Of a stretch of 64,000 bases of DNA, positions 32,305-60,274 are shown piece after piece. Under the pieces are notes generated by a model that made no database searches, had not been told where the DNA came from, and was given only the letters and a program-made list of their open reading frames with translations. The stretch covers positions 19,403,307-19,467,306 of the forward strand of contig NC_134031.1 of NCBI RefSeq assembly GCF_964204645.1, read 5' to 3'. The translations under genes and the position numbers were made by a program. The stretch comes from Tubulanus polymorphus (Eukaryota; Nemertea; Palaeonemertea; Tubulaniformes; Tubulanidae). Positions within the stretch are counted from its first letter, which is position 1; each line of letters begins with the position of its first letter.

Positions 32305-35300
32305 ATGAATCGTTTTATTGTGGTACTGGTAATTGCTACAATAGTCGCCAAGTTTGAATCAAATGCCGAACAAAGTAAGTAATCTTTATCATAGTTTTTA
32401 TACACCAATATTCCTTGTTCATTTCGTAATTCGAAATATCACAGTTCAAACACATATCATACAAATTTCAGTTAACAAACGTTATAGTTCAATGGCGGCT
32501 GATACGAACCGTTAGGTAAAATTCCTAATATGCAAATGAGGGTACCAGAAAAAAAAAATCCGATTGAATGTTTGTTCTGGTGGTGGGGGGGGGGGGGCTA
32601 AAACTGAAATAACCACGCCAAAACGGATCTTTTGAAGGAAATTCCGCCCCAATCCGCCGCCATAAGTTTTTGTGTACTGTTTGTTGATTTCTACGCCTGG
32701 TGGCTAACATTCGATAAATCAAAATCATCAATCCTCACTTATCATTTATTGATTAATCATTCCTCTAATTCATTGCTTTATTTCTACCACAAGGTTTTCC
32801 ATTGTTTTGCAATTTCGAGAATGGACTTTGTAATTTTACTCGGATTGGAATCGGTTCTATGAAAATGAGGGATAATTCATCGACCGCCAAATGGCCGATA
32901 CACGACCACACGTTTCTTCAGAAAGGTGCGTGATCACTTTTGAATATCTACACTTACTTTTACAAACATAAACAAAATTAATCTGAAACCATTTGTGGCC
33001 TTTATCGTTAATGTCATATCTTTTTGCAACAGAAAATAAAGCAAAACTTTACGCCTGAGCTCCGGAACTGAAAAGTATACATGGCTCTGATCGGCTAGTC
33101 GAAATGGCACGACCAAAGAGGAATTAGTTTAATTTTCTGTAGCAAAAATGCTGATAAGCAACTCTCATTCGTGCTTTTTTATTTCCTGTGTATTCTAGAA
33201 TGTAGGTGGAAGGGTAGTGACATAGATTCATACGTCGGCTCAACTAACAGAGCAAGAGAAGTACCAAACGATAGGAACGCCGTATATCCATGTCAAAACT
33301 GGGAAAGCATTGACCCCCATGAACCGGACGATACAATAGAAAGAATGACGAAAGTCATACCCGATAGATATCTTGTAGATGCTCATAACTATTGTCGAGA
33401 AATGGAAAAGGGTATCCCGTGGTGCTACGCTATAACTGGTTATCATACTGATCGCCGCGATTGTGAGGATATTCCGTTTTGTACAAACCCGACAGGTAAA
33501 TTGCAGCGGGATTGTTCCGCGAGTAGATGTGTCTTGATTTCTCGAATTGCTGCTTCGTTCAAAATCATTATTTATAACCATCAAAATTTAGTCTTTCCGG
33601 AATGGGCTATGGGTGTTTACACTAGATCTACGTTCGTTTCTCCGTGCGTGAATGTAAACTTCTGAACCAGTGATTACAGCTGATTTTAAAAAATCTGTAA
33701 ACGCACAGCATTGATTTGGTCCGTTTTAAATTGGTCCGTTCAGGGTACGGGCTGATTTAGCATGGGCTGATCAGCGATAGTGTGACGTATGTCATTTATT
33801 AAACTGCATTTCGATCGTTTCATCCGTCTAGGTCATTACCTGCTGTCGGATAAACCTGGATACAGCACCTTGAATTTAGGAAACCGGTTTGACACGAATA
33901 TCTGCCTCGGACTTTGGTATATCAAGAGCCCCGTAGGGGAGGCGTTTGATGTCATTCTCAAGTATGGTCCCGATGCGAAACCCATCACGATTTATTCAGA
34001 GTATAGTTACACAAGAATGTGGACATACACCGAAATAGATGTGACCAATACGGAATCCTTGAATTTCTCGGTAATATACACCATGATCCTGATATGAATT
34101 CGACGTTGAGATTTATATATCACTGCATTCAAACAAACAACCCGAAATGGTAATCTCAGAATATTGGAATTTTGCTTTGTTTCTAACAGATGAGTTGTCA
34201 CTTCTAATGCGGGCACAGATTTAGATTTCAAAATAGGGAGGCATATGATTTTGGACTGTAAAAACTGAAATAAAATTAATGTTTGGTTTATCATCAACGT
34301 TTAATGATTGCGTTCAGTGGTGATACGTTTTTACAGGTATCAATAGTGATTAATCAGGGGACAGACGATGTTATAGCTATAGACGATATACAGATTGCAA
34401 ACGAAAGTTGTTTTTCACGACCATTCGGTAAGTATCGCAAGTCTGATTGTTTGTCCCCTTCCTACGTTCACTCTTATCAGTCTGAAAAAGAGTAATGAAT
34501 AACGTGTTCATTTGATTTTGTTGATTTTAGGTGAACGTGAATTGATCGTAAACGAACGTCCAACACCAAGACGGTGGATCGATGTGGAAAATTATCGCGT
34601 ATTCATCCACCTGTCGGAGATAATGCCGTTCTGGTATTGTGAAGATTTCTGCAAGGCAAAATTCAACGGGGCTGAAATAGGTCCATTTTTCCTTAGTCAG
34701 CTCGATGAGATTCAGCGGAGGGTCAAAAACGAATTTCCAGGTTAAGAACATTGGGAATTCTATCTTAATAGAACTTTTAATTCAAAATGATTTCTTTCGT
34801 CCATGAGTGATACAATAATAGCTTTATAAGTAGTATACGCTATGATTGTTTACGAGATATCAATGAATTATTCTTTTATTTCGCAGCGCTCAACGAACCA
34901 CTGTGGATAAACACGAGGTACATCGATGCTCCCAGTACCAATGGAACCAACAGACAATGTGTAGGGTCTTTCGACTCAAGAATTCAAACTTATGATTGCA
35001 ATAAAAAGTTTTCGTGCCTCTGCCAAAGTTATACAGGTAGAATATCTGGCATGGAATTCTATGCAAAATATAGCTTTTCCAACTTCACAAACGTGTATAG
35101 ACAAACTAGTTTACACAAACCTGAATAATTTAAACGTCTCTTGTGTCATGATGATAATCTTCTATTCAGGAACCGCGGATCAAGTAGATATTTTGTCGAC
35201 CTCTGAAATAATGCACACAACACAAGATGGTAGAAAAATGGAAGGTGAACCAGTGGAGATGAGCGCATGCGAAGAGACAAGTCACGGAACTGTGATTGAA

Positions 35301-38300
35301 TATCAACTTCCAAGAACACACACCATTCAAAATATACGCATTAAATACGCCGAACGTAAGTCTGTATCATGAATATATGATCAGATCATCTATAGTTCAA
35401 CATCGCCTTTAAACAAGAGTAAGGAAGGTTCCCCCGTTCTTTTAAGTAACGTTGAGGTTTATATTGGAAGTTGATGGTCCTGACTAATGATCTTAGTTAT
35501 ACGTGAAAAATTGACGGTTGAACAAAAACGGCTTTTGATATTTACAGATCCCTGATGTTTTTACCCTTGAAATCTATAATTTTTCTAATCGCGTAACGTT
35601 TGAACAGATGTAACGACTGTAGATGAGCAAGAGATATTGAAGAGACGCGATAGAGATGACTGTAAGGTATCGGAGTTTGGTGCTGAATACAGAGGAAATG
35701 TTTCCCGCACTCATACTGGTGTGGAATGCTTGGCTTGGATTGAAATAACACACTTCAAGGGTATCCAGACGAATTTTCCCGAAAAAGACTTGAATAAAGC
35801 ACGGAATTACTGCCGCAATCCAAGTATGGAGGATGGTCCATTTTGCTACGAGACTTTCTTCGAAACACAACCTTGTAAAATCTACCCTTGCAGTTGTAAG
35901 TTGACCCATCCGCACGAGCACTGTGACTTATTGAGCTCGTAATAGTTCTGAGTGACTAATTCCATATATCTAGTTTTTTGAAAACAAAATCATTATGGCC
36001 GCAACTCTACCGTTGTAGACCTACCATTGAATATTTGACCCAAGTGTTTGTAATTTCTTTTAAGTTCGTCTAGGTAATGGTATTCACCAGACGTCTGTTA
36101 AAGGTACGAACGAGTGCATATCATGTATTATCCATCATTTATTTGCGATTTAACAAGGAGATAAAAACATTTCAAAAATGTTCCAAAAGTCTGTAACGAT
36201 AAACACAAAGAAGTTTTTTATTGATTACATACAGCTTGTCCTGATGGATGGGAGTTTGTCTCACATTCGGGCCAATGTTATCTTATGTCGACAGAACAAT
36301 TCACTAAAAAGGACGCAGAACGATATTGTCAGGATAAGGACCCACGTAACGGTCACGTGAGTATTACAATCGAACGTACACTATGACGTAGTCAAGATTG
36401 TTACAAAAAATATTATGATGATGTCAAACATCTAGACGCAGGAAACCTATATGAGGATACCACGTTTCACGGGCTGATCAATAGCCTCGTGGCGTCTACT
36501 AACTCTTCTCACATTCTTACATTAGATCAGTCTGATTCATGAACATTTTCTTTTTTTTGTGCGCGTTAAGTTACTACATTTGAACAGCCTAGATGAAATT
36601 AATAAAAGGTCAGGGTGGATACGTGGGAATTATGCGGATTATGTATGGATTCAAGGATCATCAGAAGATGATTTCGTATATCAGGGTTCTTTAGGAGGTA
36701 GATAGAAAATGATATGATTTTCATAAAACCATTACAAGAATTAATCAATTGCAGTATAATAGACATGATTTATAACGTATTTGCTTCAGAATCAATGGCA
36801 CAATTTGATTCTGTAATGTTTCGAATAGAAGGAAATAGAATAGATTCGTTCACATGGATTGCAAGAAATGCCTCGGAAAAAGTGATGGCTATAACTGTCT
36901 GTGAAACGATAAAAGGCGAGTAAACAAACATATTCTAGCAGATCACATTTGTATTATTCGTTATAAAATTTTGATTATCTTGATAAAGCAAGCTTTGAAA
37001 CGAAAATACGGTAAAATCCCACAGAATAAGAAGAAAAACGGGCCCGAAATGTCTCCTTGAAACGTTGAATAAACTATAGCTCGAGGAAACCTTTCGGACT
37101 AATTTTATTTTCATGTATGGTGGGATTTACGTAAATATCGAAAAACCTTGTTCCTTGAATTTACAGCAAATCGCGTGTTTATCGTGGGAGATGACATGTT
37201 AACTGAGGACCCAGGAAACGTAACGAACAAGAAAACCGCAGCTAACAACACTTCTGCTGACTCAGTAATGTTTGTTACTGTTATACCATCTGGTTTATCC
37301 GGGCAGATATATTCTTTACTCGGCTACGATTACGTGGCAACTCTCCTCAGTAATAATAGTGTGCGACTAGCTAAATTATCCGAAGTGAAATCCAATCTTA
37401 AACTCAATAGCAGTTGTTCGTTTAATAAGAACCAAACAGATTTCCAGCAATATGTAATAGAACGGGAGATTCGGTCACAATTTTATTGGCGGTATAATTT
37501 ATCAGTTGAACCCGGTGATCTAATTGCGATTATTCCCGAAAAGAACGCAGTTTTAAAAACGAATAACGCCGATGAATCGGGAATGATTGCATACAGAATG
37601 GAATTTGAGGAGCTAGATAATAATAACATCTTGTGCACAACGAACAAGACGCGAACGTTTCTGAATATACGCTTTCTCATCAGAGAACATAACATTGGTA
37701 AGTTACGATTTTATAATGCAGGGATGTATGGTTCTGTGGGATGTGTTTGAGAATCTGAACCCCTGCTCTTCTATGAGTGCCTTTTTGTCAAGGTAGAGAT
37801 TGAAAAAACCGGCTTGGCACACTTCGTCTCGAAATTGCATCTTTCAGGTGCATTTCTTCATTGTCGAACAACGGCGGTAGCATTTTCTTATGAACCGATG
37901 CTTTCAAACTCGTACTAATGTTATTGCGTCCCTGAAAAGCCCACTTCATTTTGAAAAGAGGAATAGGATGAAAGATTTCAAAATTTTGAACGATTTTAAT
38001 TCGCAGCGCCTTCTTCCCGTCCCCGAGAAGCGATCACGGATATCGTACGAATTACGATGAACGACTCGACACAAAATGCAAACTGCCGAATAGTACCACA
38101 AAGATATCCAGCATCGGACAATGAACTGATTTATATGTGTTACAAAACTAATACAGTTTCAAAACTCACCATCAAACTGACGAAGAATGCTAAAATCTGT
38201 AGCATATCCGCATTTGGATATCCAGGTATGATTATTATCAATGCATTCAAATGCAATTGATAACAGACGTGTTTTTTCGAATATATATTGTGTTGCCGCA

Positions 38301-41300
38301 TTTGGAAACTGATTTTCAGTTCTCTGTCGTTTTTAGACGGTGAAATATATAGAAATGTTATTACGCACGAAAGATATCGCGCCAAAAGAATGAAATTCGG
38401 GACAAAAACAAGAAGTATCGAATGTTTATCACTGATGTTCACCAGGAGTTCCTGGGTACAGTTTGATTTGCTGTCATTACACTATATACAATCAGGTAAA
38501 TATCACAGATAGTTTATACATTCCTGGAGAAAGATTTAATACGCGAGGTTCGAAATCATTATGTATCGGAGCTTGTTTGAAGAAGGTGATGGGGCAAGTA
38601 GATTGATAAATAATTTGGGAGTTGATACGAAACGAAACATTTGTCAAATTTCAGTATCGGTCGATGAGAAAATGTCTGGTCTCGTTCTGTACGTGTCGAC
38701 GTCCACGTTCTGGAGGGAAAATCTCCATTTCTGCGAAGTTCTCGTAGAAAACGATCGCAATCAAACTGAAATCCGTTGCGGAGTTCCGAAAATGGGAAGA
38801 TTTGTAACAATTGTTCAAAAGACTGGAAATACCGTTACCAGAGTGTGTAGAATTCAGATTTTTGGAACTGGTGAGTTTTTTCTAGGTTTTTGAGTTCCGT
38901 CGTTTGAAATAAAAAGTGTACATCTCTTGTATTGTTCATGTTTAAAAGCATTCGAGCGAAGAGAAGATTCATTAGGAATTACATCACAACTTATAAGAGA
39001 CAAGCAAATTACAGCCACTTCCGGAACTCCTAGTGACGTCAGAATGATTCCAGAATCGACCGCTTGGTGCGCGGGAGAGGAACTACCGAAGTACATGCAA
39101 GTACGCGTGGAATAGTTCTTAAAGCGTCACTGTATGAACGAAGTAGTCCAATTTTTACGACACTGTTCGTTCTGATGATATTTTTAAGGTTGATTTTCAA
39201 CGGATGGTTTTCGTGACGATGTTCTCAATTAAGGTTTCCGCAAATAAAGAATTCGTGCGTTATGTCGATAGCGTAAAATTATCATGGAAACATCCGGGAA
39301 CTGGACAAATGATCAAATACAGTGACGCCGTTAGTCAGGTATATTACGCAATCAGAATTAGACTTGGGTTAATAATAAAACGCAAACGAGATGAACAAAT
39401 TCAAATGGAAATACGATTTGCTGTTTCAGAAAATATTTTCGCCGGCAGGCACCGTAGAAAATGATCTCGAGATGTTTTTTAGTATGCGACATCCGTTCAA
39501 GACTACATCCGTTCAGATCACCGTCAATACGTATGTGGCATCGCCTTGTTTACAGTTAGAGCTGTACGGGTGGTACACGGGTAAAACCGGTGAGTGTATG
39601 GTGGCTCATTAGGGACATCGTGAACTATTTTTTGTAGCCGATTCATGACAAAATGAATTTTCATACCCTCACGACGATTGTAAAACAAATAAAACTATGA
39701 ACAACATCTGTTGGTTTTACGCGTTATTTATTGAATTAACGTAGTTTTTACGCCACATGAAAACTATTGTTAACATTGATTTTACGTGACGTAATAGCCA
39801 TCGTATTTTGAGAATGCAAAATCAATTTTTCATGAATCGGCTTAACATCATAATGGACGATTTCGCTAATCAGCCACATAGACAAGTTTTTTAAGAAATG
39901 CTGATACGAAACATATAAATACCAGTTGCTTTGACCGATTAGAATGTTTTCTGAGGCCGATTTGGAATGTAATTCATGATTTGAAAATCATTGAGGCGAT
40001 CATTCTGAACCATTAAACCTGAATGCTCGCTTTTCAGAAAGCAAAATCGATAAAACTGGAACGTATGATTACAAATTGTGGAAAAAGGGTTTTGAATGGA
40101 CGATCACCGCTCCGGAAGATTCTCATTTCCTCGTTGAATATCCAATTCAGCAAGTGCCCGCTGCCAATTACCAGGTGATGATTAGTAGTTTTCATTAATT
40201 GATCTAGTAATAATTTGAAACAAAAAAATGAACTCAAATGATTAAAACAATTCATGATTTATAGGCAAAGCCAGAAACTCAGTGGGTTTATTCCAAAGAT
40301 TGTATAGAGAATATCTTTGAAGTTCAACTTTTTGATGCGAACCACACGATGCAAGTTTCCAAAACATACGCCAAATTACCGACTTTAGTGGTGAATAAAA
40401 ACCACGTTCTCATCGTGAAACTGGATGTCTGTTTCGCAAATAGAATCGTTTTCACCGACGAATATTGGCTGAGAATGAACATCTCAAAAATAGGTAAGGA
40501 GTATCATTTCCAATCGCTGATCATTGGTAAAATCTTTTCTGAAATGGAAATATCCGCGTGACTGCTATGTTATCCAGATTGTCCTGGTGTCGGGTTTCTG
40601 GACTCGATCAATTCTACAATTCGCCACTTGAACAGCAAAACGTGTAGTCTGTTCGCATCACCGATGTTTCCAGTTCTGCCCGGACGAACTTCATTAACAA
40701 CCTGGAAAATTACTACCAAATTCACAAACTACATCGAACTGAAGTTTATCAAATTCGATTCTTCGAATGATGAATGTCGTTTGAACTATTTGGAGCTGAT
40801 ACACGCGAGTCAATTCGTCGGTCGTCGTATCTGTAACAACAGTATGCTGCCCGATGCAATCTACAGCGATTGGAATGAATTATCTATTCGTTTGACAATC
40901 AGCGTATCGGCTACGAATGTAATGGGATTTCTAGCACGTTATCGGTCACAGGAAATTAGATTTGATCAACATATTAACAATCATTCGGGTGAGTAGTTTT
41001 GGCTTAATATCCAATAGAGATTTATGTAATATAATTTTTTTTGTTTACTTTTGCAAATAAAGTCTCTGTGTAATTGTTAATGGTTATTCTTTCATGGCTA
41101 TTTCAGGCAATGAATGTGATCCAAACTGGCTGCACTACGACGGAAATTGTTTTCTATTCCGAACTGCTAACAGTTCTTTACCTCTGAAGATTAATTCAGC
41201 GAATAAACTCTGTCGATCTGAAGGTGCGTTTCTGGCCAGTGTGAAGAGCGAGAAAGAAGCCAAATTCATTCATGCAAAGTTAGTGACTTATTGGCTGAAA

Positions 41301-44300
41301 GATCACAGCGAAGAACGAAAGGTTTATATCGGTGAGAACTATTTTCAGTTGATCGGTTTAGGGTGATATCAGCTAAATTCTCTAAATTCCTGGAATTCTA
41401 TATATATTTAGGTTTATACGACGAAACGAATACGAGATATTTCGAATGGTTTGACCACACTGCTGTCGGCTTCACGGCATGGTGAGTTAGCAGGAATAAA
41501 GTCGATGAGTGTGGATGCATTTTATACGCATATAACCTTCCATTAGATCCCAAACAAAGTTCGATGTCGATGTTCTCGATACCTTTTAGGAAAATATTCA
41601 TTATCTAAAAATTGTGGCGCCATTTGATTTTGAGTTTATAGTCAATATCTTTTTTACTTGCGGCCGATTTTCTCACATTTAATGCTTCTAATTTTGACCA
41701 GGGCCAACGAACAACCTAACGGAGGTAATTTAGAGAGGTGCGTTTTTCTGGATCAGAAATCGCTTCTTCCTAATACGGCTCTGTCAAATTGGTACGATTT
41801 TCCATGCGGTGAACCGGCTACAAATCATTTCATTTGTAAAAAGCCAAGTCGTCAGATTACATCGATCAAGCCTGGTAATTCTAACGTGTTGTACGTGGTT
41901 GTATTTGCTTTCTCGCTATTTTAATTACTTTAACGATTTATCTTTTGAGTGTTTTGAAGTTCGTTGGACGCAGCTTCCCGATTTAGGACCGAATAATCGC
42001 TCAGTTTGTACCGATCACGAATTGTTCACGTGTTTCAATGGCGAATGTATTCACAAAACTGATGTTTGTGACGGTATTGAAAATTGTAGAGACTCATCGG
42101 ATGAAATCAATTGCGGTAAATAAAAACTTATAGAAGATTCTATAGTATTTCTGTGACCGATGCAATCATCGATGGAATAAAATACCGAAATGTTACCGGC
42201 GTGTCTCTTTTTATTCGTTTATTATCAGGAGTAACGTGTTCAGATCAACAGTTCCGCTGCATGAACGGACGGTGTATATCGTTATCGTATTTATGCGATT
42301 TTCGAAACGATTGCGGCGATAATTCTGACGAATCGTTTTGTTGTAAGTGTTTAAACAACGCGATCAACTACAGACGGGTAGAACTGTTGTTAGTGTATAT
42401 CTATTTTCTTCAGCTTATCCGTCTTGTGATGCTACGGAATTTCATTGTAAGAATGATCAATGTATTCCTGAAATCAAACGAGATGATCGTATCGAAGATT
42501 GTATTGATGGATCAGACGAGCGGCCCAGTGCAGGTAATACTTGTTAATACCTATATTATTTCGAATGACCTTCCGAATACACGTTTTTACTTTTCACACA
42601 GTTGAATGTAACGGATTTCAATGTTACGATGGCTCGTGTTACCCAGCAAGTTGGAGATGTGACGTCACCTTCGACTGTTCCGGTAGTTCGCGAGAAGATG
42701 AAGCGGGTTGTCTTTCTAAACGTAAGTAAAAGTATTTCATGATATTGAAAAAAATCTGTTAATAGACGCAATATTTGACGGAAAATTCGATTTTATTTTT
42801 CGTTCATTGAAGTGAAATTGGGAGATGGATTTAAAGAATGCGCCAATGGTTTCGTTTATAACTCATCGCACAGATGTTTATACAACACTGATCAGTATGG
42901 ATTTCAAACTCCGTGTCGAGACAATTCACATCTCTTAAACTGCGGTAATCAACATATGAAAATACTCATTGCAAAGTTGAAGACAGTGACGATTATAATA
43001 GATCTTGCATTATGTTTTCAGGAGATTACATTTGTCCAAGTGGATACTTCAAATGTCCAGGAAGTTACTGCATTGCGGCCCAATTCGTCTGCAATGGGCG
43101 ACCAGATTGTCCTAGTAATACTGATGAACACAAATGTGGTACGAACCTAAATCGAGATTATCAAAATGCAACGTAACGTTTTTTATTTTCTAAGGTGGAA
43201 ATCTGTATCATTTACAGATGCATATGTATGTCCAGGGATGTATAGATGTTCTTCGACGAAGCAATGCGTGCATATGGATGAAATCTGTGATGGAAAAACG
43301 CAATGTCAAAATAACGACGACGAACGATTCTGTAACTTCATTATTCCTCATCCTTGTACTGGTTCTGGGTATTCTGTATTTTGTGAATCGACCGATCTTA
43401 CACGACTCCCGTCCAATGGCCAATATACAGCATCTAGATCTATCAGTTTATTCAATAACACTAGAATCATATTGGACAACTCTACATTCCAACCATTCGT
43501 TTATTTGACTCATTTAGATCTGAGGTTGTGCGGAATCACTCAGTTGTCCGTCGGAATCATCTCGTATCTGGTGAATCTTAACTTTCTCGATTTACGTGAG
43601 AACCCGCTGGTGACTCTTAAAGCCGGCAGTTTGAGTAATCTCGGTAATCTCCGTACTATCTACTTGAACACTAACGGAGAACTGTCTCTGATAGAATCTG
43701 GGGCCTTTATGAACACATCGGCTTTGACATCACTTGATCTACACGGAGTTAATCTAAACACGCTTTCACTCGGCATGTTTCACGGACTTTCTTCACTGAA
43801 GCGATTAAATCTTTCTGCGAGTAATATCGTTGACATACAAGACGGCGCTTTTATGGGCCTCGGAGAAGTATCAAATTTAGACTTATCGAAGAATAAGCTA
43901 CAATCATTTACAACAGAAGTTTTTAGTGATCTGAAAAACCTGGCCCATTTACGTAGTGACTATTACAAATTCTGTTGTATGGCTCCAGGAGTTTCAGAAA
44001 GAAATTGTTTCCCCCCGAAAAACCAGTTTTCATCCTGCACTGACTTGATGCGTAGTAATGTTTTACGCATTAGTTTGTGGATCGTAGGAACTGTTGCTTT
44101 ATTCGGTAATTTATTGGCACTGATCATTCGCTATCGTTTCGACACACCATCAGCTAACGGTCGTTTGACTGTAAGTCTAGCGGTTTCAGACTTTTTCATG
44201 GGTGTTTACATGTACATAATCGCCAGTGCTGACTCGTATTATCGGGGTACGTACATTCTTCACGACGAGAACTGGAGGAACGGATCGTTGTGTAAACTAG

Positions 44301-46721: not shown

Positions 46722-49700
46722 TTAAGCGGCCTTTTTCGAGTTGTTGATCTTTCGCAGAAGATACTTCACGACTTTTCCAAACTGCGAAATGTCTACAGCT
46801 ATATCAGTCTGACCAAAAAATCTGTCGGTTGTAAGAAAAACTTCTACTACCTCACATGCATTGCGCGAGTTCTGAAAACAAAATTCGTTCGTTTATGCAA
46901 CAAGTTTTTACGATTATTTCAATGAATGACGAACTATGCAGAAAAAGTCGCACCTTCTTATATCCAAGAATTACAGTCTCAACCTCCAGTACTCTGATCG
47001 ACAAGTCTTTGGAATGAACTTCTTGTAACACTTCGGCCAGTCGTTTAACTACAGCAAGCGCTGTACGCGGGTTTGCGTTGGAATGAAATACCATCGACAA
47101 TGGCTCCAGGTCATCGATGTCTTGTTTCTGTTCGGGTAAAATAGGTATAACGTTCGGCACTAGCACGTCGGTGACGTTTTCGCTTGAGACTAAAAGATAA
47201 ATTGTATCAAATGCATTGAATAATTGTTCTGAACTGTATCACTGCGAATTGCGTGTATAATATAAAAGTGTAATGGAAAATGTCATGATGATACGGGTGG
47301 TGATCTTACGTGTTGAACTCTGAGTTCTATTCAGCATACTTCTTTCTCTGAAAGAGCAATTTATTTGTACGGACGTGATTAAAATGAAGATACAGAATAT
47401 TAGATGACTGTGCACGATACGCTCTGGAGCCAGTTGCTCAAAAGTTGGTTAAGGATAAAGGTCAGATAAACCGTTGTAACAATGGACTTTTAATGCTTTG
47501 GTCAAAACCAACTTAGGAGCAACTGGTCCCTGGTAGATAGCACTTTGAATTCACCTGATGGACCTGAATCCGAATATCGTGTAAAGTACAGGATTTATGG
47601 CACTGTTAATTGGTAGAACGAACGAAGCTATCCACGCGTACACGTCACTGGGTATGACAATTTGGCCACTTACAGCAAGTATACCTGGATAAGTTAATAG
47701 TAGAGACTATGACATTGGTGAAATATATTTCTAGTCATAATCATACAATTGAATGACAGTGAGAGTTCTTAGGTCTGTAAAGCAATTTCGTACCGAGGAT
47801 GATTATTGGCATCCAAGCACAAAAATCAGTAAGTACTATCAACATCATCTTTCTTGCAACGGCTATTTCCTTATTTTGTGATTTCGTTTGATGCCTTGTT
47901 TGACTAGATAAAGAAATCACCCTATACATCCACACGTAACAACCAGCTATAATCATAAAACCTACAAAGTTCAATCCGATGAATACTGCTACCGAGTAGT
48001 CCCAACCAGGTCGTTGCTCTGATGTCAGATGTAGAGACAAACAAACTCCGGAACGTGAGTAAAACTCTCCTCCAAAATAATCAATAGGTAAAAGAGGTAC
48101 GCCGGCCAGGACAATACCTACAAACCAGAATAACACGATGCAGTACGAAGCTCGCGAAGGCGTCAGCTTCATTCGTGAAAAAGGGAAAACAACTGCGACG
48201 AACCTGTCCAGAGACATAACCAGTAACATGAACATGGACACCTCAGTAGATAGACTAGCAAGAAATCCAGCTAGTTTACACAACGATCCGTTCCTCCAGT
48301 TCTCGTCGTGAAGAATGTACGTACCCCGATAATACGAGTCGGCACTGGCGATTATGTACATGTAAACACCCATGAAAAAGTCTGAAACCGCTAGACTTAC
48401 AGTCAAACGACCGTTAGCTGATGGTGTGTCGAAACGATAGCGAATGATCAGTGCCAATAAATTACCGAATAGAACCACAGTTCCTACGATCCACAAACTA
48501 ATGCGTAGAAAAAGACTACGCATCAAGTCAGTGCAGGAGGAAAACTGGTTTTTCGGAGGGAAACAATTTCTTTCTGAAACTCCTGGAGCCATACAACAGA
48601 ATTTGTAATAGTCACTACGTAAATGGGCCAGGTTTTTCAGATCACTAAAAACTTCTGTTGTAAATGATTGTAGCTTATTCTTCGATAAGTCTAAATTTGA
48701 TACTTCTCCGAGGCCCATAAAAGCGCCGTCTTGTATGTCAACGATATTACTCGCAGAAAGATTTAATCGCTTCAGTGAAGAAAGTCCGTGAAACATGCCG
48801 AGTGAAAGCGTGTTTAGATTAACTCCGTGTAGATCAAGTGATGTCAAAGCCGATGTGTTCATAAAGGCCCCAGATTCTATCAGAGACAGTTCTCCGTTAG
48901 CGTTCAAGTAGATAGTACGGAGATTACCGAGATTACTCAAACTGCCGGCTTTAAGAGTCACCAGCGGGTTCTCACGTAAATCGAGAAAGTTAAGATTCAC
49001 CAGATACGAGATGATTCCGACGGACAACTGAGTGATTCCGCACAACCTCAGATCTAAATGAGTCAAATAAACGAATGGTTGGAATGTAGAGTTGTCCAAT
49101 ATGATTCTAGTGTTATTGAATAAACTGATCGATCTAGATGCTGTATATTGGCCATTGGACGGGAGTCGTGTAAGATCGGTCGATTCACAAAATACAGAAT
49201 ACCCAGAACCAGTACAAGGATGAGGAATAATGAAGTTACAGAATCGTTCGTCGTCGTTATTTTGACATTGCGTTTTTCCATCACAGATTTCATCCATATG
49301 CACGCATTGTTTCGTCGAAGAACATCTATACATCCCTGGACATACATATGTATCTGTAAATAATACAGATTGCCACCTTAGAAAATAAAAAACGTTATGT
49401 TGCATTTTGATAATCTCGATTTAGGTTCGTACCACATTTGTGTTCATCATTATTACTAGGGCAATCTGGTCGCCCATTGCAGACGAATTGGGCCGCAATG
49501 CAGTAACTTCCTGGACATTTGAAGTATCCACTTGGACAAATGTAATCTCCTGAAAACATAATGCAAGATATAATCGTCACTGTCTTCAACTTTGGCAAAT
49601 ACCACTTGGCAATGAGTATTTTCATATGTTAATTACCGCAGTTTAAGAGATGTGAATTGTCTCGACACGGAGTTTGAAATCCATACTGATCAGTGTTGTA

Positions 49701-52700
49701 TAAACATCTCTGCGATGAGTTATAAACGAAACCATTGGCGCATTCTTTAAATCCATCTCGCAATTTTACTTCAATGAACGAAAAATAAAATCGAATTTTC
49801 CGTCAACTATTGCGTCTATTAACAGATTTTTTTCAATATCATGAAATACTTTTACTTACGTTTAGAAAGACAACCCGCTTCATCTTCTCGAGAACCACCG
49901 GAACAGTCGAAGGTGACGTCACATCTCCAACTGGCTGGGTAACACGAACCATCGTAACATTGAAATCCGTTACATTCAACTGTGTGAAAAGTAAAAAAGT
50001 GTAATCTGAAGGTCATTCGAAATAATATAGGTATTAACAAGTATTACCTGCACTGAGCCGCTCGTCTGATCCATCAATACAATCTGCGATACGATCATCT
50101 CGTTTGATTTCAGGAATACATTGATCATTCTTACAATGAAATTCCGTAGCATCACAAGACGGGTAAGCTGAAGAAAATAGATATACATTAACAACAGTTC
50201 TACCCGTCTGTAGTTGATCGCGTTGTTTAAACACTTACAACAAAACGATTCGTCAGAATTATCGCCGCAATCGTTTCGAAAATCGCATAAATACGATAAC
50301 GATATACACCGTCCGTTCATGCAGCGGAACTGTTGATCTGAACACGTCACTCCTGATAATAAACGAATGAAAAGAGACACGCCGGTAACATTTCGGTATT
50401 TTATTCCATCGATGATTGCATTGGTCACAGAAATACTATAGAATCTTCTATAAGTTTTTATTTACCGCAATTGATTTCATCCGATGAGTCTCTACAATTT
50501 TCAATACCGTCACAAACATCAGTTTTGTGAATACATTCGCCATTGAAACACGTGAACAATTCGTGATCGGTACAAACTGAGCGATTATTCGGTCCTAAAT
50601 CGGGAAGCTGCGTCCAACGAACTTCAAAACATTCAAAAGATAAATCGTTAAAGTAATTTAGATAGCGAGAAAGCAAATACAACCACGTACAATACGTTAG
50701 AATTACCAGGCTTGATCGATGTAATCTGACGACTTGGCTTTTTACAAATGAAATGATTTGTAGCCGGTTCACCGCATGGAAAATCGTACCAATTTGACAG
50801 AGCCGTATTAGGAAGAAGCGATTTCTGATCCAGCAAAACGCACCTCTCTAAATTCCCTCCGTTAGGTTGTTCGTTGGCCCTGATCAAAATTAGAAGCATT
50901 AAATGCGAGAAAATCGGCCGCAAGTAAAAAAGATATTGACTATAAACTCAAAATCAAATGGCGCCACAATTTTTTTTTATAATGAATATTTTGAGAGGTA
51001 TCGAGAACATCGACATCGAACTTTGTCTGGGATCTTATTGTAGTTCATATCCATATAAAAATGTATCCACACTCATCGACTTTATTCCTGCTAACTCACC
51101 ATGCCGTGAAGCCGACAGCAGTGTGGTCAAACCATTCGAAATATCTCGTATTCGTTTCGTCGTATAAACCTAAATATATATAGAATTTCAGGAATTTAGA
51201 GAATTTAGCTGATATCATCCTAAACCGATCAACTGAAAATAGTTCTCACCGATATAAACCTTTCGTTCTTCGCTGTGATCTTTCAGCCAATAAGTCACTA
51301 ACTTTGCATGAATGAATTTGGCTTCTTTCTCGCTCTTCACACTGGCCAGAAACGCACCTTCAGATCGACAGAATTTATTCGCTGAATTAATCTTCAGAGG
51401 TAAAGAACTGTTAGCAGTTCGGAATAGAAAACAATTTCCGTCGTAGTGCAGCCAGTTTGGATCGCATTCATTGCCTGAAATAGCCATGAAAGAATAACCA
51501 TTTACAACATACTGAATATTACACAGGGATTTTATTTGCAAAAGTAAACAAAAAAAAAATTATGTTACGTAAATCTCTATTGGATATTTAGCCAAAACTA
51601 CTCACCCGAATGATTGTTAATATTTTGATCAAATCTAATTTCCTGTGACCGATAACGTGCTAGAAATCCCATTACATTCGTAGCCGATACGCTGATTGTC
51701 AAACGAATAGATAATTCATTCCAATCGCTGTAGATTGCATCGGGCAGCATACTATTGTTACAGATACGATGACCGACGAATTGACTCGCGTGTATCAGCT
51801 CCAAATAGTTCAAACGACATTCACCATTCGAAGAATCGAATTTGATAAACTTCAGTTCGATGTAGTTTGTGAATTTGGTAGTAATTTTCCAGGTTGTTAA
51901 TGAAGTTCGTCCGGGCAGAACTGGAAACATCGGTGATGCGAACAGACTACACGTTTTGCTGTTCAAGTGGCGAATTGTAGAATTGATCGAGTCCAGAAAC
52001 CCGACACCAGGACAATCTGGATAACACAGCAGTCATGCAGATATTCCCTTTTCAGAAAAGATTTTACCAATAATCAGCGATTGGAAATGATACTCCTTAC
52101 CTATTTTTGAGATGTTCATTCTCAGCCAATATTCGTCGGTGAAAACGATTCTATTTGCGAAACAGACATCCAGTTTCACGATGAGAACGTGGTTTTTATT
52201 CACCACTAAAGTCGGTAATTTGGCGTATGTTTTGGAAACTTGCATCGTGTGGTTCGCATCAAAAAGTTGAACTTCAAAGATATTCTCTATACAATCTTTG
52301 GAATAAACCCACTGAGTTTCTGGCTTTGCCTATAAATCATGAATTATTTTAATCATTTGAGTTCATTTTTTTGTTTCAAATTATTACTAGATCAATTAAT
52401 GAAAACTACTAATCATCACCTGGTAATTGGCAGCGGGCACTTGCTGAATTGGATATTCAACGAGGAAATGAGAATCTTCCGGAGCGGTGATCGTCCATTC
52501 AAAACCCTTTTTCCACAATTTGTAATCATACGTTCCAGTTTTATTGATTTTGCTTTCTGAAAACATTGAATGCGAATTAGATTCTAATGAAATCTATGTT
52601 ACTCCGACGATGCCAACATACTGCGAATGTGTTAAGTACATGAATGCGGTATGTGATATGCGAAGCAAGGGACATAAAGCTATTTGATCGAGTTGGAGTA

Positions 52701-55700
52701 AAATCAATCACCGGTTTTACCCATGTACCATCCATACACTTCTAGTTGTAAACATGGGAAAGTGACGTAATACGTGACTGTGAAGCGCGCTAATGATGTA
52801 ATAACAGGATGACGAAGGTAGAAATATGTCTCCAGATCCTTTTCCACGACGCCTTTCGAAAGAAATGATTTCTGAAACGATGAAACATAACACTCTTTTA
52901 AATAGTTAGATATCTCTTACACCCCTACAAATACTATTTACAGAAAATATCTAAAGAGCATCTTTTAGCAGTCAACTCATGAAAAAAAGGAAATGTTAAT
53001 TTTATGTCATCGCCTAGTCTTAGCCTACCTTACGTTTGAATGGCGCCTCAGTATAAAACATCATTTTTCCTGTTTTGTGATGCCTCCAAGAGAATTCGAA
53101 GCCATCGACGAAACGTATGATTTTCTGATCTGGGATCTTAGTTGAAAACGCTGTCAAAAGAACATCCCGCAGGAAATCAACCTAAAGAAATAAGTCGTAA
53201 AAGGTATTGTTGAAAGCTGTCGTTTTAGAATACTTTAGCTTTTCTGAACCTACCTGTAACACGTGTTTCTGTTCCTTATCTAAAGCGCACCAAGCGGTCG
53301 ATTCTGGAATCATTCTGACGTCACTAGGAGTTCCGGAAGAGGCTGTAATTTGCTTGTCTCTTATAAGTTGTGATGTGATTCCTAATGAATCTTCTCTTCG
53401 CTCGAATGCTTTTATACATGATCAATACAAGAGATGTACACATTTTATTTCAAACGACGGAACTCAAAAACCTAGAAAAAACTCACCAGTTCCAAAAATC
53501 TGAATTCTACACACTCTGGTAACGGTATTTCCCGTCTTTTGAACAATTGTTACAAATCTTCCCATTTTCGGAACTCCGCAACGGATTTCAGTTTGATTGC
53601 GATCGTTTTCTACGAGAACTTCGCAGAAATGGAGATTTTCCCTCCAGAACGTGGACGTCGACACGTACAGAACGAGACCAGACATTTTATCATCGACCGA
53701 TACTGAAATTTGACAAATGTTTCGTTTCGTATCAACTCCCAAATCATTAATCAATCTACTTGCCCCATCACCTTCTTCAAACAAGCTCCGATACATAATG
53801 ATTTCGAACCTCGCGTATTAAATCTTTCTCCAGGAATGTATAAACTATCTGTGATATTTACCTGATTGTATATAGTGTAATGACAGCAAATCAAACTGTA
53901 CCCAGGAACTCCTGGTGAACATCAGTGATAAACATTCCATACTTCTTGTTTTTGTCCCGAATTTCATTCTTTTGGCGCGATATCTTTCGTGCGTAATAAC
54001 ATTTCTATATATTTCACCGTCTAAAAACGACAGAGAATTGAAAATCAGTTTCCAAATGCGGCAACACAATATATATTCGAAAAAACACGTCTGTTATCAA
54101 TTGCATTTGAATGCATTGATAATAATCATACCTGGATATCCAAATGCGGATATGCTACAGATTTTAGCATTCTTCGTCAGTTTGATGGTGAGTTTTGAAA
54201 CTGTATTAGTTTTGTCACACATATAAATCAGTTCATTGTCCGATGCTGGATATCTTTGTGGTACTATTCGGCAGTTTGCATTTTGTGTCGAGTCGTTCAT
54301 CGTAATTCGTACGATATCCGTGATCGCTTCTCGGGGACGAATAACTAAATCTGCGTGAGAAATACGAATAATTAATCATATGCTTTATAAGAAGAGTCTA
54401 TCATTTTCATCACTTTCTAAGATCGTTTTCAGTCAAAATATGCATCGTTACCTGCGTAAGATTCTGTGATGAAAAAGGCCAATTTCATAAGAACAGTTTG
54501 TGTCGTATTCTTTATGCAGAATGTGTCTTCACGAATGGCATTGAATTCCGTCCTATATGCGATCATCATTCCCGTATTACGGGTCATATTAACATCATTC
54601 GTTCCTAGAACAACGCCACCTTCAGGGATAATTGCGATTATATCGCCCGGAAATACAGGGATAAATATGGTATGCCGATCGTCGAATCGTGTGAAACCTT
54701 TCTTGCGGTCTTCCAATGGAACGAACTCTTCGTGATCTACTTCAATTTGCGCCTGCTTTTCATCAGACGGGCAGTCGTCAACTGAATGTTTCGGGCTTGA
54801 TTCGTGGTGCTTTATTTTGGCAATGCGCACACCAGCTCTAGCGTTGTTGTTGTTGTTGTTGTCGGTTTTAAAATGATAATCGATCTGGCGCAGTACCCCG
54901 GTTAGCTCTGCCGAATAATTAATGAGAACAAGCTTTAATCAATCTTTACTAGTTCTTGCCTCTGACTCGGAGAGCAGAGGGCGTATTTCTCCGTGCCCCC
55001 TTTTTATTCAACTCGTAGCAACTTAATCATTATCGCGATCGAGGGTTAAATGGCAGGCTGGGGCATGTACAAGTGACAAGAAATGATTCATTTCAAATTA
55101 CTTCTGATTTATCTTTATACCGTAAGCAATGTCATTTTGGACCGGCAATAAGTAGATCGTTAGGTTGTGAGATCTACGTACTTCACAATCTGCAAACATC
55201 GTTTGCAGTCGGGGTATAGAAAGCCTTTTACATTTACTATAATAGTTCGCGTTGACTAAAAGCTTCTCGTTACAACTGACCGGGTGGTATGATTACTAGA
55301 AACATCGGATTGGTAGCATTATCACCCATTTCCATTGTAGGACTCTTTTCATCATTTTCATTCGTAGCATTTCCGAACATATACACGTTATTTCCTATAG
55401 TTACAAACAAACTTGGATTACATTGCATGGAATGTTCTTCGAATTCTAAACGGGATGATATGATGTTTACTTAACTTTTGATTCACAGATAATGCGGGTC
55501 TTAGTGTCGGTGGCATTGGTCGGATACCATTTATTTGCATTAGGACTAAACAGTATAGCGTCATACTGTTCGGTTGTACCTGAAACGTGTAAAAGCGTAG
55601 AATTAATGACAAACGCATACAGAAATTCTATGTGTACGATGTAGATATTCACCTCCAAGTGAATTTTCAAATGCAAAATTATCGTCTGATGATCCTTGGA

Positions 55701-58700
55701 TCCAATACAAATAACCATTCCCAGAACCATATATCCTCATGTAACGTTCTTCTTCTTGTCCATCAAGTTGAAACAACTATGCGCATGATGTTGAAAAGAA
55801 AGGGACTCAGTTATCTATACGACTTAACTAAAGACGGACGTAGATCGCTTACAGAATTCATAATTCATACCGAACCGTTTCATTCATTATTTATGATTAA
55901 TATTCTTTATTAACGAATTAAATTACATCAGAAATTACATAGGAATTTATTTAACGAAGTGAGATACGGATTTTACTTTTGAAAAACCATTTTAATGCAC
56001 ACGCATAAACTTCCTGATCGCTGATTGGACCCCAATTTTGTAATTCAGCAGGAACATTTTTTAATATGCATGCATTATTTAATCATTCCGCATAAAGTGT
56101 GCCGGTACTTCGGTTTCAGATTTCAAAATCAAACCCTTGTTTCGCTGAGGGCAGGTTCGAATCAACACCAAATCAAAACAAAAATAACAGGAAATCTTTA
56201 CCAAGTAAATACACAACCGGGCCAATCTCTATTTTAAGATTAAAAACTATAGCAAATAGATAAGTAAATAAATGAATGATAACATACATGTCCGTAACGC
56301 GGATCTTTATCTCGACAAAATCGTAGAGCGTCCTGTTTGTTATATTTTGTTAGCTCGTCCGTAGAGCAATAGCAGCGTCCAAAAAATACGTCGCTCCAAT
56401 CTAAAGAGCAACCTTGAAAAAAATGCATTCGCTTTGACTTGAATTTTCATTATTATACATGTAGGATGTACTGAATTTACACGAAACTAACGCAAGGTTT
56501 ACCTTTAAAAGGCATCTGGTGTATTGACGAACCTAGATGAGCTGAATTGATAAACACATTGCTAAAATATTCAATGATTACCGTAACATAAGTCTTAAAC
56601 ATCATTCAAATCTATGGTGGCTGGTAAGGGACATCGTTATTTTTGTAGCCGATTCATGACATAAAATAACTATTTTATGGACAATAAAACGATAGTCACT
56701 TTTTGATTTTACGCCATGTTTAATTAAACTATTCCATTGTGTTTTATGTTGAATTTAGATACGATGAAAAATCTTATTTCAAGGAAGCAAATTAATGTTT
56801 GTCTTGAATCGGCTCGAAAAAAGTAACGCATTATGATCCCATAATCGGCCATCATAAATAGCTGTTAACCTCCAGTTTGATAGGGATCTGTACATATCAA
56901 AAGCCGTTTTTGTTCAACCGTCAATTTTTCACGTATAACTAAGATCATTAGTCAGGACCAACAACTTCCAATATAAACCTCAACGTTACTTAAAAGAACG
57001 GTACCTTCCTTACTCTTGTTTAAAGGCGATGTTGAACTATAGATGATCTGATCATATATTCATGATACAGACTTACGTTCGGCGTATTTAATGCGTATAT
57101 TTTGAATGGTGTGTGTTCTTGGAAGTTGATATTCAATCACGGTTCCGTGACTTGTCTCTTCGCATGCGCTCATCTCCACTGGTTCACCTTCCATTTTTCT
57201 ACCATCTTGTGCTGTGTGCATTATTTCGGAGGTCGACAAAATATCAACTTGATACGCGGTTCCTGGATAGAAGATTATCATCATCATCACACAATGGATG
57301 CTCAAATTCTTTTCAGATTTTCAGGTTTCTGTCGATTACTTTATCTATATGAACTTGTTTGTTGAATTGGAAAAATGCCGGATATGTATAACTTTGGCAG
57401 AGACCTGTATAACTTTGGCAGAGACAATGTAACGGTTTGTTGCAATCAAAAACTTGAATTGTTAAGTTGGAGCTGCTTCCCACACATTGTCGGCTTGCGT
57501 TGATAATATGTGGAATATCCCTATATCTGTCGTTTATCCAAAGTGTTGTTACGCCTACACAAATTGAAAAACGAATTCAGGGTTGGATTAAAGGGATTTC
57601 ATCCTTCGTACACAAACGCCATCGTATAATCATCCGCGATCACATACCTGGAAATACGTCTTTAATTTTATGCCAGATTTCAGCGAGCTGGCTGAGAAAA
57701 AATGGACCCACTTCTGAACTAGGTAATTTTTCCTGGCAGAAACTTTCACAGCGCCAGAATTGCATTACTTCGCTGAATATGGCTACACGAAAATGCTGAA
57801 AATCGATCCACTTGTCTGGTAGAACACTCTCGTACTTACTCTTTCGCATATCTGAAATGTTTTGAGTTGCGGGAATGGAATGAATTGTTGCTGAAAAAAA
57901 AACCTTTCTGATTCATACATTTCTGTCAGACACTTTCTACCTCTGAAAGGCATCAGAAAGCAGCTTTTGTTTCCAATTCTTATATCATCTATAGCTGAAG
58001 CATTGCCTTTGCTCTGTTGGATAGCTATCGTAATCTGCAAAGATTTTGGTCTGATTGTAAACCTAAGTGTCTTGCCTAAGATTGATGAAATGTACAAGCA
58101 AATGTTTCAATTTCACATTCACTTTAGTCGAAAGAAATGAATAGATTACCGATAGTTTCAGAGACTCTGTATTGGCCACATCTATTTCAGTGTATTTCCA
58201 TAGTTTCGAGGTGCTGTATTCAGAGTAGAACGCGATATGTTCATCATCGGCGTCAAACTTCAAAACTACGTCAAACGCTCTCCCAATAGATGTCGTTGTA
58301 TACCACAGTCCAATACAGATATCCGTGTCAAACCCGTGTCCCAGAACCAGAGTGCTATACCCAGGCTCATTCGACAGCAGATAATGTCCTAATAAATTAA
58401 GACGAGGTAAATTTCAAATGATTGCAAAAATGCGATTCGAAAATCAGAGAATAAACAAAATTTACAGAATAGGGAAATCAGGTAAATGAATGTATATGAA
58501 TCTACCTTGTAGGGGTAGGTCTAATGGAACCTTACACAACAGATATCGACAAATGGAAGGCGGTCCGTTACACCATGCAATCTGTGAAGAAGATTCTTTA
58601 CGACATCTCGTAAGGAATACTCCCTGATACGATCGATGCAGTCGAAATACATTTGTGAAAGCCCACATCATAAGCTTGTCAAATGTTGAATAACAGATGG

Positions 58701-60274
58701 CTTTGTACGATATTATTCCCTTCAACCATATAAGGGAATTAGTGTCTCTGACATCGGGCCATTCGCAATCTTAAAGATAGAAAACGGATATGTGTGCACC
58801 AGTAATTATCACATCCCAGTCCATCCTCCCCGACAGGGATTCGAACCCGATTGTACGAAGCCGCAGTATTCAAACTGTATTCAGTTAAAACGTGTACAAC
58901 GCTTGTGCCCGGTATGGAATTTATACAAATGATTAAAAAGAAAAAAAAAACGGAATGACACAAAGTTACATTCGAGGTTACATAGAGTCTCATGATGCCA
59001 TCAGGTTCGAATCTCTGCCGCGGGAGGATGTTTCCAGCCTAGATTCATGCATCCTCCCACGGCAGGGATTCGAACCTGATGGCATCGCTACACTCAGCCA
59101 CGGCACGTGCGCTATCTCGATGCCATCAGGTTCGAATCCCTGCCGCGGGAGGATGAGCAACAGTTATAAAGATACGAAAGCCAATCCATACCTACGATAG
59201 TCAGCGTTGTTTGGTCATGTATTGGTCTCATCATACTTATTGAGTCGTCATTAATTTTCAATTTACCGGAGCCGATCCGCGTGAAATTGCAGAGACCACC
59301 CTCGAAATCGCATAACAACGGAAAACCTGCAGTTGTGTGAAACATCGATTTGAAGTTACATTCTTCTGCCGTAGATTATTAAATTCCCGAATGATGATTG
59401 AAAGGTACTTTTTGCGTGCAACAGAAAATGTAACTTAGTGGTGAAAACATTAAACAGGTCTTATAGGTTAACGAGATTTTGCTACCCATTCCACAGTTGT
59501 GAGTTTTCATTCAGATTTATCTCTTCATTGATAACTAATTTTTAACATAGAGCTAACTCAAACTCATTGCTGGGACCGGATCCTGGTGAAGCTATTGCGC
59601 AGGCGAAAGCTCGTAATTTCTGATATTTGATACCAGATTTAATGCGGCTCTCCTAAAATATTTCTCATCATTACTATTGTTTGTACTAAGTACTCATTCA
59701 GCGTTGATTTTTGACGCTGTAGAAATCGCGACAAAAAGGTTTATATACATTGATACCTAGTATGCATTATATAAGGGGTTCTGTGTGAGTCGATGTGCAC
59801 TACGTCATCAATATTGGCGTTTCAGAGTATCCATTACAATTGTGAATTTTGACGTTTATTTTGCAATCAAATATTTATATGAATATTTCATAACTCTTTA
59901 TAACTTTCATTATTTTGTATTTGATAATTATTTTTTTGAGGATGTGCACTACGTCATCAACATTTCGGGGCTAGACTGGTTGCCGGTCAATTCAATCATC
60001 GATATTCAAATCCAAGATAACTTCATTAATCCTTCATATTACATAATTTTGATTTTGAAATATAACTTATATGAGAAATTTTTTCTCGTAACCAAAATTC
60101 TTGAAAATACTATAATAATATTTTTCATTTATTTCGTTGTAGACACAGTACTCAGTCGCATTTTCCATAAGTATCAACACAATATACAATTCACAAATAT
60201 TACTTACTTTGTTCGGCGACTATACCAAAGCCGATCATCGAAATAGTCACGATGAATACTAGAAATCGAGTCAT
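46722..60274 (-). CDS. Receptor B: paralogue of receptor A in inverted, tail-to-tail orientation
   Basis: Thirty-five minus-strand exons join in frame to 2464 aa: 60274-60208, 59326-59192, 58769-58506, 58388-58150, 58034-57941, 57851-57648, 57554-57405, 57262-57077, 56412-56288, 55776-55653, 55579-55476, 54905-54452, 54350-54132, 54020-53862, 53771-53487, 53408-53254, 53181-53029, 52871-52712, 52556-52420, 52329-52101, 52016-51606, 51474-51250, 51169-51100, 50879-50707, 50621-50466, 50352-50239, 50167-50048, 49979-49860, 49768-49637, 49549-49433, 49353-47794, 47684-47555, 47347-47310, 47189-46954, 46871-46722. The domain order is as in A, with three differences: a MAM N-half exon ([13 protein letters not shown]) precedes the kringle, kringle 2 is absent, and exon 12 has a short Asn run from a GTT microsatellite. 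The LDLa/LRR/7TM core (49353-47794) differs from A in only about nine residues of 520. The kringle, lectin 1 and 2, F5/8C end, TM7 and tail exons are clearly diverged. Confidence 0.9.
47422..47533. mobile_element. Short MITE in receptor B intron 32
   Basis: CCAGTTGCTCAAAAGTTGGTT on the left is mirrored by AACCAACTTAGGAGCAACTGG on the right, about 98 bp in total between the arms' outer ends. It is non-coding and absent from the matching intron of receptor A, so it was inserted after duplication or lost from A. Confidence 0.6.
56616..56814. mobile_element. MITE copy 2, in the receptor B intron that lacks kringle 2
   Basis: AGCCGATTCATGAC (56647-56660) is mirrored by TCTTGAATCGGCT (56802-56814). 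The 5' flank TATGGTGGCT...GGGACATCG matches copy 1 at 39606. Both copies lie in the same window orientation, therefore in opposite orientation relative to their host genes. That points to independent insertions rather than co-duplication. Confidence 0.6.
58506..58769 (-). other. Divergent kringle exon of receptor B, inside a MAM domain
   Basis: Six cysteines are in kringle order ([30 protein letters not shown]), but most other kringle residues have changed. The exon is phase 1-1. It sits between exon 59192-59326 (MAM start, [13 protein letters not shown]) and exon 58150-58388 (MAM continuation, [10 protein letters not shown]). Joining the flanking exons without it would restore a normal MAM reading: ...TTLTIV then GHYLLS. 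Confidence 0.7.
58820..59160. mobile_element. Cluster of tRNA-derived SINE pieces in head-to-head arrangement
   Basis: B-box-like sequences GGTTCGAATCCCTG or GGTTCGAATCTCTG occur four times. Two are on the plus strand (about 59006 and 59130). Two are on the minus strand (about 58836-58855 and 59060-59080). The minus-strand unit at about 59043-59105 also has an A-box-like TGGCTGAGTG at tRNA spacing. The GATGCCATCAGGTTCGAA blocks face each other, making inverted pairs. They lie in receptor B intron 2. Confidence 0.55.

Follow-up and report, generated by a model that had tools for sequence, protein, structure and literature searches.

An inverted pair of predicted giant type C LGR genes in Tubulanus polymorphus, with a near-identical core and diverged sensor modules

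Two convergent genes and their modules

We analysed a stretch of 64,000 nucleotides from the nemertean Tubulanus polymorphus (assembly GCF_964204645.1, contig NC_134031.1; referred to below as the window, C7:19403307-19467306). In it lie two genes, A and B, that are convergent, with B (60274-46722, minus strand) facing A (32305-45721, plus strand), and that are predicted to encode very large G-protein-coupled receptors (GPCRs). The inverted pair was recognised from plus-strand frames in the left half of the window that are colinear with minus-strand frames in the right half. Both genes were built with a splice-aware model trained on the codon usage of long open frames from the same genome (268 Mb in 77 contigs), guided by protein conservation to three paralogous loci, on C60, C10 and C6, after which junctions were set by hand; exact exon and nucleotide counts are model-dependent. 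Ab initio models from codon usage alone had fragmented into spurious micro-exons, and the comparative models were used instead, while a bonus-heavy model that ran through introns served only for locating exons at C6.

32305..45721, plus strand: gene A, complete coding model of 36 exons and 2604 amino acids (comparative splice model)
46722..60274, minus strand: gene B, complete coding model of 34 exons and 2376 amino acids, without kringles

The coding sequence of A is 7815 nucleotides long including the stop codon, its sole stop is the terminal one, and its introns are GT-AG throughout bar one GC-AG. B has 7131 nucleotides, stop included, and its single reading frame stays open all the way from the signal peptide. 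The first-pass annotation, made from the sequence alone, had placed two genes here, each read in a single frame over its whole length, and both points are borne out by the splice models; its counts of 35 exons and 7683 coding bases for A, and 35 and 7395 for B, were close but not those of our models. The GC donor of A (intron 36915-37167) is common to A, C60 and C10. In B this shared donor has changed to TT in the intron after 55476; an in-frame alternative donor and acceptor exist and the frame stays open, with the B model uncertain across 55476-54905. An early model that started B inside the upstream transporter gene (62285-61943) was rejected, and a 51-nucleotide exon in A (36074-36124) was dropped, being missing from C60 and C10.

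The predicted order of modules in A is signal peptide, MAM with kringle 1, a first C-type lectin-like domain (CTLD1), a 62-residue module, kringle 2, CTLD2, module X, an F-lectin-like module, F5/8C, a CUB-like module, CUB, CTLD3, LDLa repeats, leucine-rich repeats (LRRs), hinge, seven-transmembrane domain (7TM) and tail. The rows follow the plus strand for A and the minus strand for B.

32305..32374, plus strand: A exon 1, predicted signal peptide (23 protein letters, not shown), a hydrophobic start judged by eye
32794..34427, plus strand: A MAM, on exons 32794-32925, 33832-34070 and 34337-34427, split by the kringle 1 exon
33199..33495, plus strand: A kringle 1, a single 297-nucleotide exon of phase 1-1, between ..HDHT and GHYLL of MAM
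34531..35036, plus strand: A CTLD1, degenerate C-type lectin-like, Pfam Lectin_C E=0.052 over the C-terminal half only
35170..35355, plus strand: A 62-residue module, phase 1-1, F5/8C-like by eye only and without a Pfam assignment
35608..35895, plus strand: A kringle 2, a single 288-nucleotide exon of phase 1-1 (Pfam)
36235..36915, plus strand: A CTLD2, three exons, Lectin_C 3.6e-5 in the C60 counterpart
37167..37697, plus strand: A module X, beta-rich, V.PGD.IAIIPE motif, no Pfam match
38007..38870, plus strand: A F-lectin-like (fucolectin/F5-8C-type) module, profile match to FBP32, E=0.0067
38949..39589, plus strand: A F5/8C (discoidin) domain, profile match to neuropilin-2 b1, E=1.9e-9
40038..40493, plus strand: A CUB-like module, by position and length only, no Pfam match
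40578..40988, plus strand: A CUB domain, one exon of phase 1-1, Pfam CUB 1.6e-6
41107..41874, plus strand: A CTLD3, Pfam Lectin_C 1.8e-15, QPN..WYD motif
41960..43138, plus strand: A LDLa array, six exons (one variant repeat), mostly one repeat per phase 1-1 exon, Pfam Ldl_recept_a 3.8e-38
43218..44990, plus strand: A last LDLa, LRRs, LGR hinge (FCCMA...FSSCTDLM) and 7TM, 7tm_1 1.1e-27, RXFP1 E=9.4e-74
45102..45721, plus strand: A cytoplasmic tail, possible dead kinase C-lobe fragment, ULK/MNK/KSR profile matches at E ~0.1
47794..49353, minus strand: B last LDLa, LRRs and most of 7TM, 98% identity with A
58150..59326, minus strand: B first two MAM exons, 59326-59192 and 58388-58150, with no kringle between

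A Pfam scan of the spliced A protein confirmed the MAM (1.6e-6), CUB, LDLa (in six stretches), LRR (LRR_8, 3e-21) and 7TM domains proposed earlier and found two kringles (6.7e-17). For F5/8C, single sequences fell below the Pfam cut-off, and a profile of four paralogs matched neuropilin b1 and factor VIII C domains over nearly its full length (1.9e-9), which upholds that assignment as well. Three lectin domains had been claimed; CTLD3 is strong, but CTLD1 reaches only the value listed and CTLD2 has no Lectin_C match in A. The motif in CTLD3 is QPN in A and B, EPN in C60 and C10, and QPD in C6 and in a further paralog on C3, with W[YFH]D instead of WND. Neither CTLD1 nor CTLD2 has an EPN/QPD plus WND-type motif, and among the lectin domains a Ca2+/sugar-type motif appears confined to CTLD3. 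Module X was modelled with AlphaFold2 on five single-exon sequences, giving an unusable mean confidence score (pLDDT) of 38. Hydrophobic segments above threshold were absent from the ectodomain of A, and one marginal segment was found in that of B.

Among solved structures, the LDLa-LRR-7TM part of A is closest to RXFP1 (E=9e-74, 252 bits), followed by LGR4 (158 bits) and the glycoprotein-hormone receptors (TSHR, 141 bits). The 7tm_1 match of 97.7 bits, against a gathering cut-off of 30.5 bits, places it in class A (the rhodopsin family); the Pfam scan of A returned only 7tm_1 and related class A models, with no 7tm_2 or GPS of the adhesion type. The 7TM domain has the usual class A motifs (DRF, CAWMP and NPVLY), and ahead of it the hinge (FCCMA..., 15 protein letters not shown) is of the LGR type. 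About seven LDLa repeats, six Pfam stretches and one variant, lie N-terminal to the LRRs, and because there are several, the core would be GRL101-like, type C2 by the definition taken from PMC4079206. The GRL101-like core of the earlier reading is thus supported as a type C LGR, with RXFP1 as top match and a large modular ectodomain in one frame.

The kinase-like tail, also part of that reading, did not stand. A profile of the tail matches ULK, MNK and KSR at E ~0.1 over the region from alpha-D to the catalytic loop only, with HRD aligned to non-catalytic residues. Pfam returned no match of any kind for the tails of A, B, C60 or C6 (the C3 tail gave Pkinase at 0.078), and the tail of A holds no full kinase domain with HRD and DFG and has no room for an N-lobe. 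It would be at most a dead kinase C-lobe fragment.

Kringles had been attributed to the pair, but they belong to A only. Pfam finds none in the B protein, and no kringle-like frame was seen by eye in the corresponding B introns. The Pfam match to MAM is uninterrupted in B (profile positions 1-157/158), and in A it runs from profile position 40 onward, resuming after kringle 1. Kringle 2 is present in C60, C10 and C6. Since kringle 1 is also present in C60 and C10 and matched in C6, B has probably lost both. The kringle 1 exon is symmetric, so a transcript that skips it would encode MAM without a break, and we hypothesize that such skipping does occur.

Near-identical tracts between diverged blocks

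Alignment of A with B gives three tracts of near-identity, introns included:

35148..35553, plus strand: conversion tract 1, partner 56882-57284 (minus), 98% including the intron
38018..39097, plus strand: conversion tract 2, partner 53260-54339 (minus), 98-99% including introns
40031..44782, plus strand: conversion tract 3, partner 47789-52563 (minus), ~96-99% including introns, from CUB to 7TM

DNA identity between A and B is 93-100% in the tracts, compared with ~67-79% in exons outside them. The corresponding protein identities are 0.94-1.00 inside and 0.32-0.62 outside, and A and C60 share ~0.36-0.74 in the same outside modules. The 62-residue module, which lies in tract 1, is 97% identical to that of B. 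The diverged modules are MAM, CTLD1, CTLD2, part of F5/8C and the tail, mostly at 32-62% protein identity. Outside the tracts, A is no nearer to B than it is to C60, on another contig: for CTLD1a the A-B and A-C60 identities are 0.49 and 0.59, for CTLD2a 0.49 and 0.74, and for the core 0.98 and 0.81. Tract edges fall close to exon/intron edges of the gene models.

In the diverged exons of A and B, synonymous divergence (dS) is mostly saturated and the ratio of nonsynonymous to synonymous divergence (dN/dS) is ~0.1-0.6, so both N-termini have been maintained as coding sequence. Positive selection was considered as the cause of divergence and rejected, the ratio in these exons being below 1. C60 and C10 form a second patchwork pair, almost identical save for kringle 2 (0.64), CTLD2b/c (0.81) and module X (0.71); CTLD2b/c and X are diverged in both pairs. 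Kringle 2 is highly diverged between C60 and C10, and with dS ~1.0 and dN/dS 0.22 it appears old rather than fast.

This pattern is what gene conversion between the arms of an inverted repeat predicts. To treat A and B as a simple pair is to miss what look like old paralogs with a recently homogenised core.

Paralogous loci, a wider family and the neighbourhood

The exon order of A and B recurs in all three paralogous loci, modelled through in C60 and C10 and largely in C6. Modules are colinear in the three and phases are the same in C60 and C10; C60 reads through these modules in one frame, with matching phases at homologous junctions, and C10 likewise through its modelled exons. This recurrence, and the dN/dS values of the diverged exons of A and B, are more than would be expected by chance. 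A few acceptor positions in C60 and C10 were trimmed to the exon lengths of A and are not real splice sites, which leaves the frame unaffected. C6 carries the F5/8C-like module, kringle 2, CTLD2, X and the C-terminal half. One intron of this paralog harbours an open frame (piece ~1623-2129) that has a CCCH-like zinc motif and looks by eye to be of mobile-element type. C60 is a 60-kb unplaced contig whose flanks match those of C10 at 97.7% over 3.1 kb, where the match ends, and it could be either an allele or a paralog of C10. In a tree of sequences from this genome, A, B, C60, C10 and C6 group together as one clade (100/100).

Genome-wide, the distinctive modules of the N-half were found only at these A-type loci and in one partial copy at C10:13752076-13754760 (minus strand), which has a MAM/CTLD1/F5-8C-like part and no kringle, CUB or 7TM matched nearby, and which could be a truncated or soluble form. 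The CUB-CTLD-LDLa-LRR-7TM part is also found in paralogs on C3 and C1, whose N-termini are different or undefined. At C3:25810000-25828000 lies another mosaic (CTLD, F5/8C-like, PAN-like, possible kringle, CUB, CTLD, LDLa, LRR, 7TM) whose LRR-7TM is 42% identical to the A-type core.

A DNA motif for YG..xGVCLP, in the extracellular loop of LDLa-LRR-7TM receptors, gave 267 matches across the genome and 0 in a reversed control; A-type genes do not have this motif and are outside the count. The top protein matches are open frames of ~1,080 residues with LDLa-LRR-7TM, mostly single frames, and many copies lie ~10 kb apart at C6:18.66-22.14 Mb. C-type lectin ends seemed present by eye at the start of these frames, which Pfam did not confirm. 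By this motif count, the genome would hold ~260 further LDLa-LRR-GPCRs, a very large GRL101-like expansion.

Elsewhere in the window, upstream of A, ligand-gated ion channel exons (28067-28916, plus strand; Pfam Lig_chan 5e-17) belong to a gene resembling those for ionotropic glutamate receptors. A single long open frame for a major facilitator transporter (60921-62318, minus strand; MFS_1 1.9e-16) lies on the same strand as B, ~650 bp upstream of its exon 1. In a satellite array at 3628-9277, a 171-bp unit is repeated 33 times (96% alike), and a 62-bp unit is present in four perfect copies at 25464-25712. On C6, a Hox cluster (5318228-5634583, all on the plus strand) contains homeodomains that we read as Lox5- (with a KLNGP parapeptide), Lox4-, Lox2- and Post2-like. 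The source is therefore lophotrochozoan, in keeping with the first-pass annotation, which spoke of other lophotrochozoan genomes.

Giant receptors and alternative explanations

The reading we favour, with moderate confidence, is that A and B are single giant type C LGRs in which the distal modules bind a surface ligand and conversion homogenises the core. Transcribed as one mRNA and displayed at the cell surface, each would carry ~2,000-2,100 extracellular residues, largely from phase 1-1 exons, ahead of the LDLa repeats, LRRs, cysteine hinge and 7TM. The distal modules would capture a multivalent surface-borne ligand, for example the glycans or lipid of another cell or of a microbe. The LDLa-LRR-hinge unit would then pass this binding on as G-protein signalling, in the manner of RXFP1 with its LDLa linker and hinge. 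The two genes would be old, inverted paralogs in which recurrent conversion between the arms holds two internal tracts and the core, from CUB to 7TM, near-identical. The remainder would drift while purifying selection acts on it, so that the two receptors share a signalling core but differ at their sensor ends. That glycans or microbes are what is recognised we infer from the kinds of module present.

Several points weigh against this reading. The exon joins are predictions from sequence alone, the lost GC donor of B could indicate partial decay, and CTLD1, the CTLD2 of A, the F-lectin-like module and module X would each be weak calls taken on their own. Positive selection was not seen at the level of exons, and with it any direct mark of an arms race is missing. 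Nor would the distal modules be required for the relaxin/insulin-peptide role that has been proposed for GRL101 receptors (PMC8286064).

A and B might each be two genes wrongly joined, a secreted or glycosylphosphatidylinositol-type protein with MAM, kringle, CTLD and F5/8C followed by a CUB-CTLD-LDLa-LRR GPCR. The paralogs on C3 and C1, which have the second part under other N-termini, speak for this, as does the partial copy on C10, with N-half modules and no 7TM found nearby. Tract 3 begins at the exon at 40038, where the first-pass annotation had itself suspected a boundary, and the intron before LDLa6 has a short hydrophobic ATG frame that can splice in phase. Against it stands the join 39589|40038, which is in phase (phase 1) and followed by a 137-nucleotide exon of phase 1-0 in A, B, C60 and C10, with the 137-nucleotide exon also in C6. 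No stop codon of the N-half precedes the join, and the sole ATG frame in intron 39590-40037 able to start a downstream gene is a weak hydrophobic one of 15 residues. Because the exon order is shared by three paralogous loci, we take each locus to be one gene rather than two and consider the split improbable. We also think it unlikely, if less so, that these are endocrine LGRs that bind an insulin-related peptide on the LRRs as RXFP1 does, with the extra modules in accessory roles (anchoring, clearance, dimerisation). The RXFP1-like LRR-7TM fits such a role, and insulin-like growth factor-like peptides have been put forward as ligands of GRL101 (PMC8286064), but the several lectin-type modules and the many-fold tandem expansion of LDLa-LRR-7TM genes are more in line with a repertoire for recognition or chemosensation than with a single hormone axis.

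The history of the pair can likewise be told in other ways. A recent inverted duplication, followed by replacement of N-terminal modules through recombination with another paralog rather than by long-term conversion, would leave the same near-identical core and diverged patches, and a B-like partial copy, without detected kringles, is present at C10:13.75 Mb. But diverged blocks separate the three tracts, and divergence is seen again in the 3' tail past the core, so replacement would need several exchanges; C60 and C10, moreover, show a similar patchwork with other boundaries. We give this account a small chance of being correct. That the inverted repeat is an assembly artefact, a fold-back or a haplotype mis-join, is very improbable: its arms are 96-99% identical and ~3 kb apart, and C60 is an unplaced contig, yet a fold-back would be near-identical throughout, and here long blocks have 32-62% protein identity and saturated dS.

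RXFP1 has one LDLa and is not known to carry lectin, CUB, MAM or kringle domains, and neuropilins are single-pass co-receptors not known to have LDLa, LRR or 7TM. The likeness of A to RXFP1 extends over LRR, hinge and 7TM (444 residues; PDB 7tmw, E=9e-74), with EKY in RXFP1 where DRF stands here, while neuropilins join CUB, F5/8C and MAM in one receptor, and neuropilin-2 is the best match of our F5/8C profile. GRL101 of Lymnaea stagnalis (Tensen et al. 1994, per PMC8286064), a type C2 LGR, shares the many LDLa repeats, LRRs and LGR 7TM; it is described as having twelve LDLa, six LRRs and nothing more, whereas A has seven LDLa with CUB, CTLD, F5/8C, MAM and more ahead. The SudRes2 region of Biomphalaria sudanica, linked to schistosome resistance, holds 12 clustered GRL101-like genes for GPCRs with C-type lectin-like, LDLa and LRR domains and a class A 7TM in one protein (PMC12297450). 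A also has a C-type lectin N-terminal to LDLa-LRR-7TM (CTLD3), but the snail receptors have no reported MAM, kringle, F5/8C or CUB (the words 'kringle' and 'MAM' are missing from that text), and their cluster of 12 compares with the motif count of 267 here. Amphioxus Adhesion GPCRs carry modules of the same kinds (kringle, somatomedin B, C-type lectin, CUB, discoidin and LDLa; PMC2246102), but they belong to the Adhesion family rather than to Rhodopsin/LGR, and the combination with an LRR-LGR core is not reported. In the literature searched, largely without subscription papers and preprints, we found no paper on kringle, MAM, F5/8C or CUB on an LGR, which is not proof of absence. The earlier statement that the combination is undescribed holds to that extent, but its kind has precedents in the last two systems.

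More tentatively, and at low confidence, we speculate that these loci belong to a family with a constant core and variable sensors, in which conversion homogenises the signalling core, while distal lectin, kringle and discoidin modules, carried on phase 1-1 exons, diversify, are lost or are exchanged. Such a family would be a surface recognition repertoire coupled directly to G proteins, with kringle 1 as a skippable cassette whose presence or absence breaks or restores MAM. The pattern of conserved core and divergent sensor, and the kringle exon nested in MAM, go beyond the first-pass annotation, and the inverted pair offers a natural experiment on conversion that stops at exon/intron edges. 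With ~260 further LDLa-LRR-GPCRs predicted in the genome, the pair can therefore be studied within a large receptor repertoire. Should the models hold, lectin, discoidin, CUB, MAM and kringle modules amounting to ~2,100 extracellular residues can sit on a rhodopsin-type GPCR, and invertebrate recognition modules would be tied directly to G-protein signalling, for which the only earlier hint came from the SudRes2 locus of a snail.

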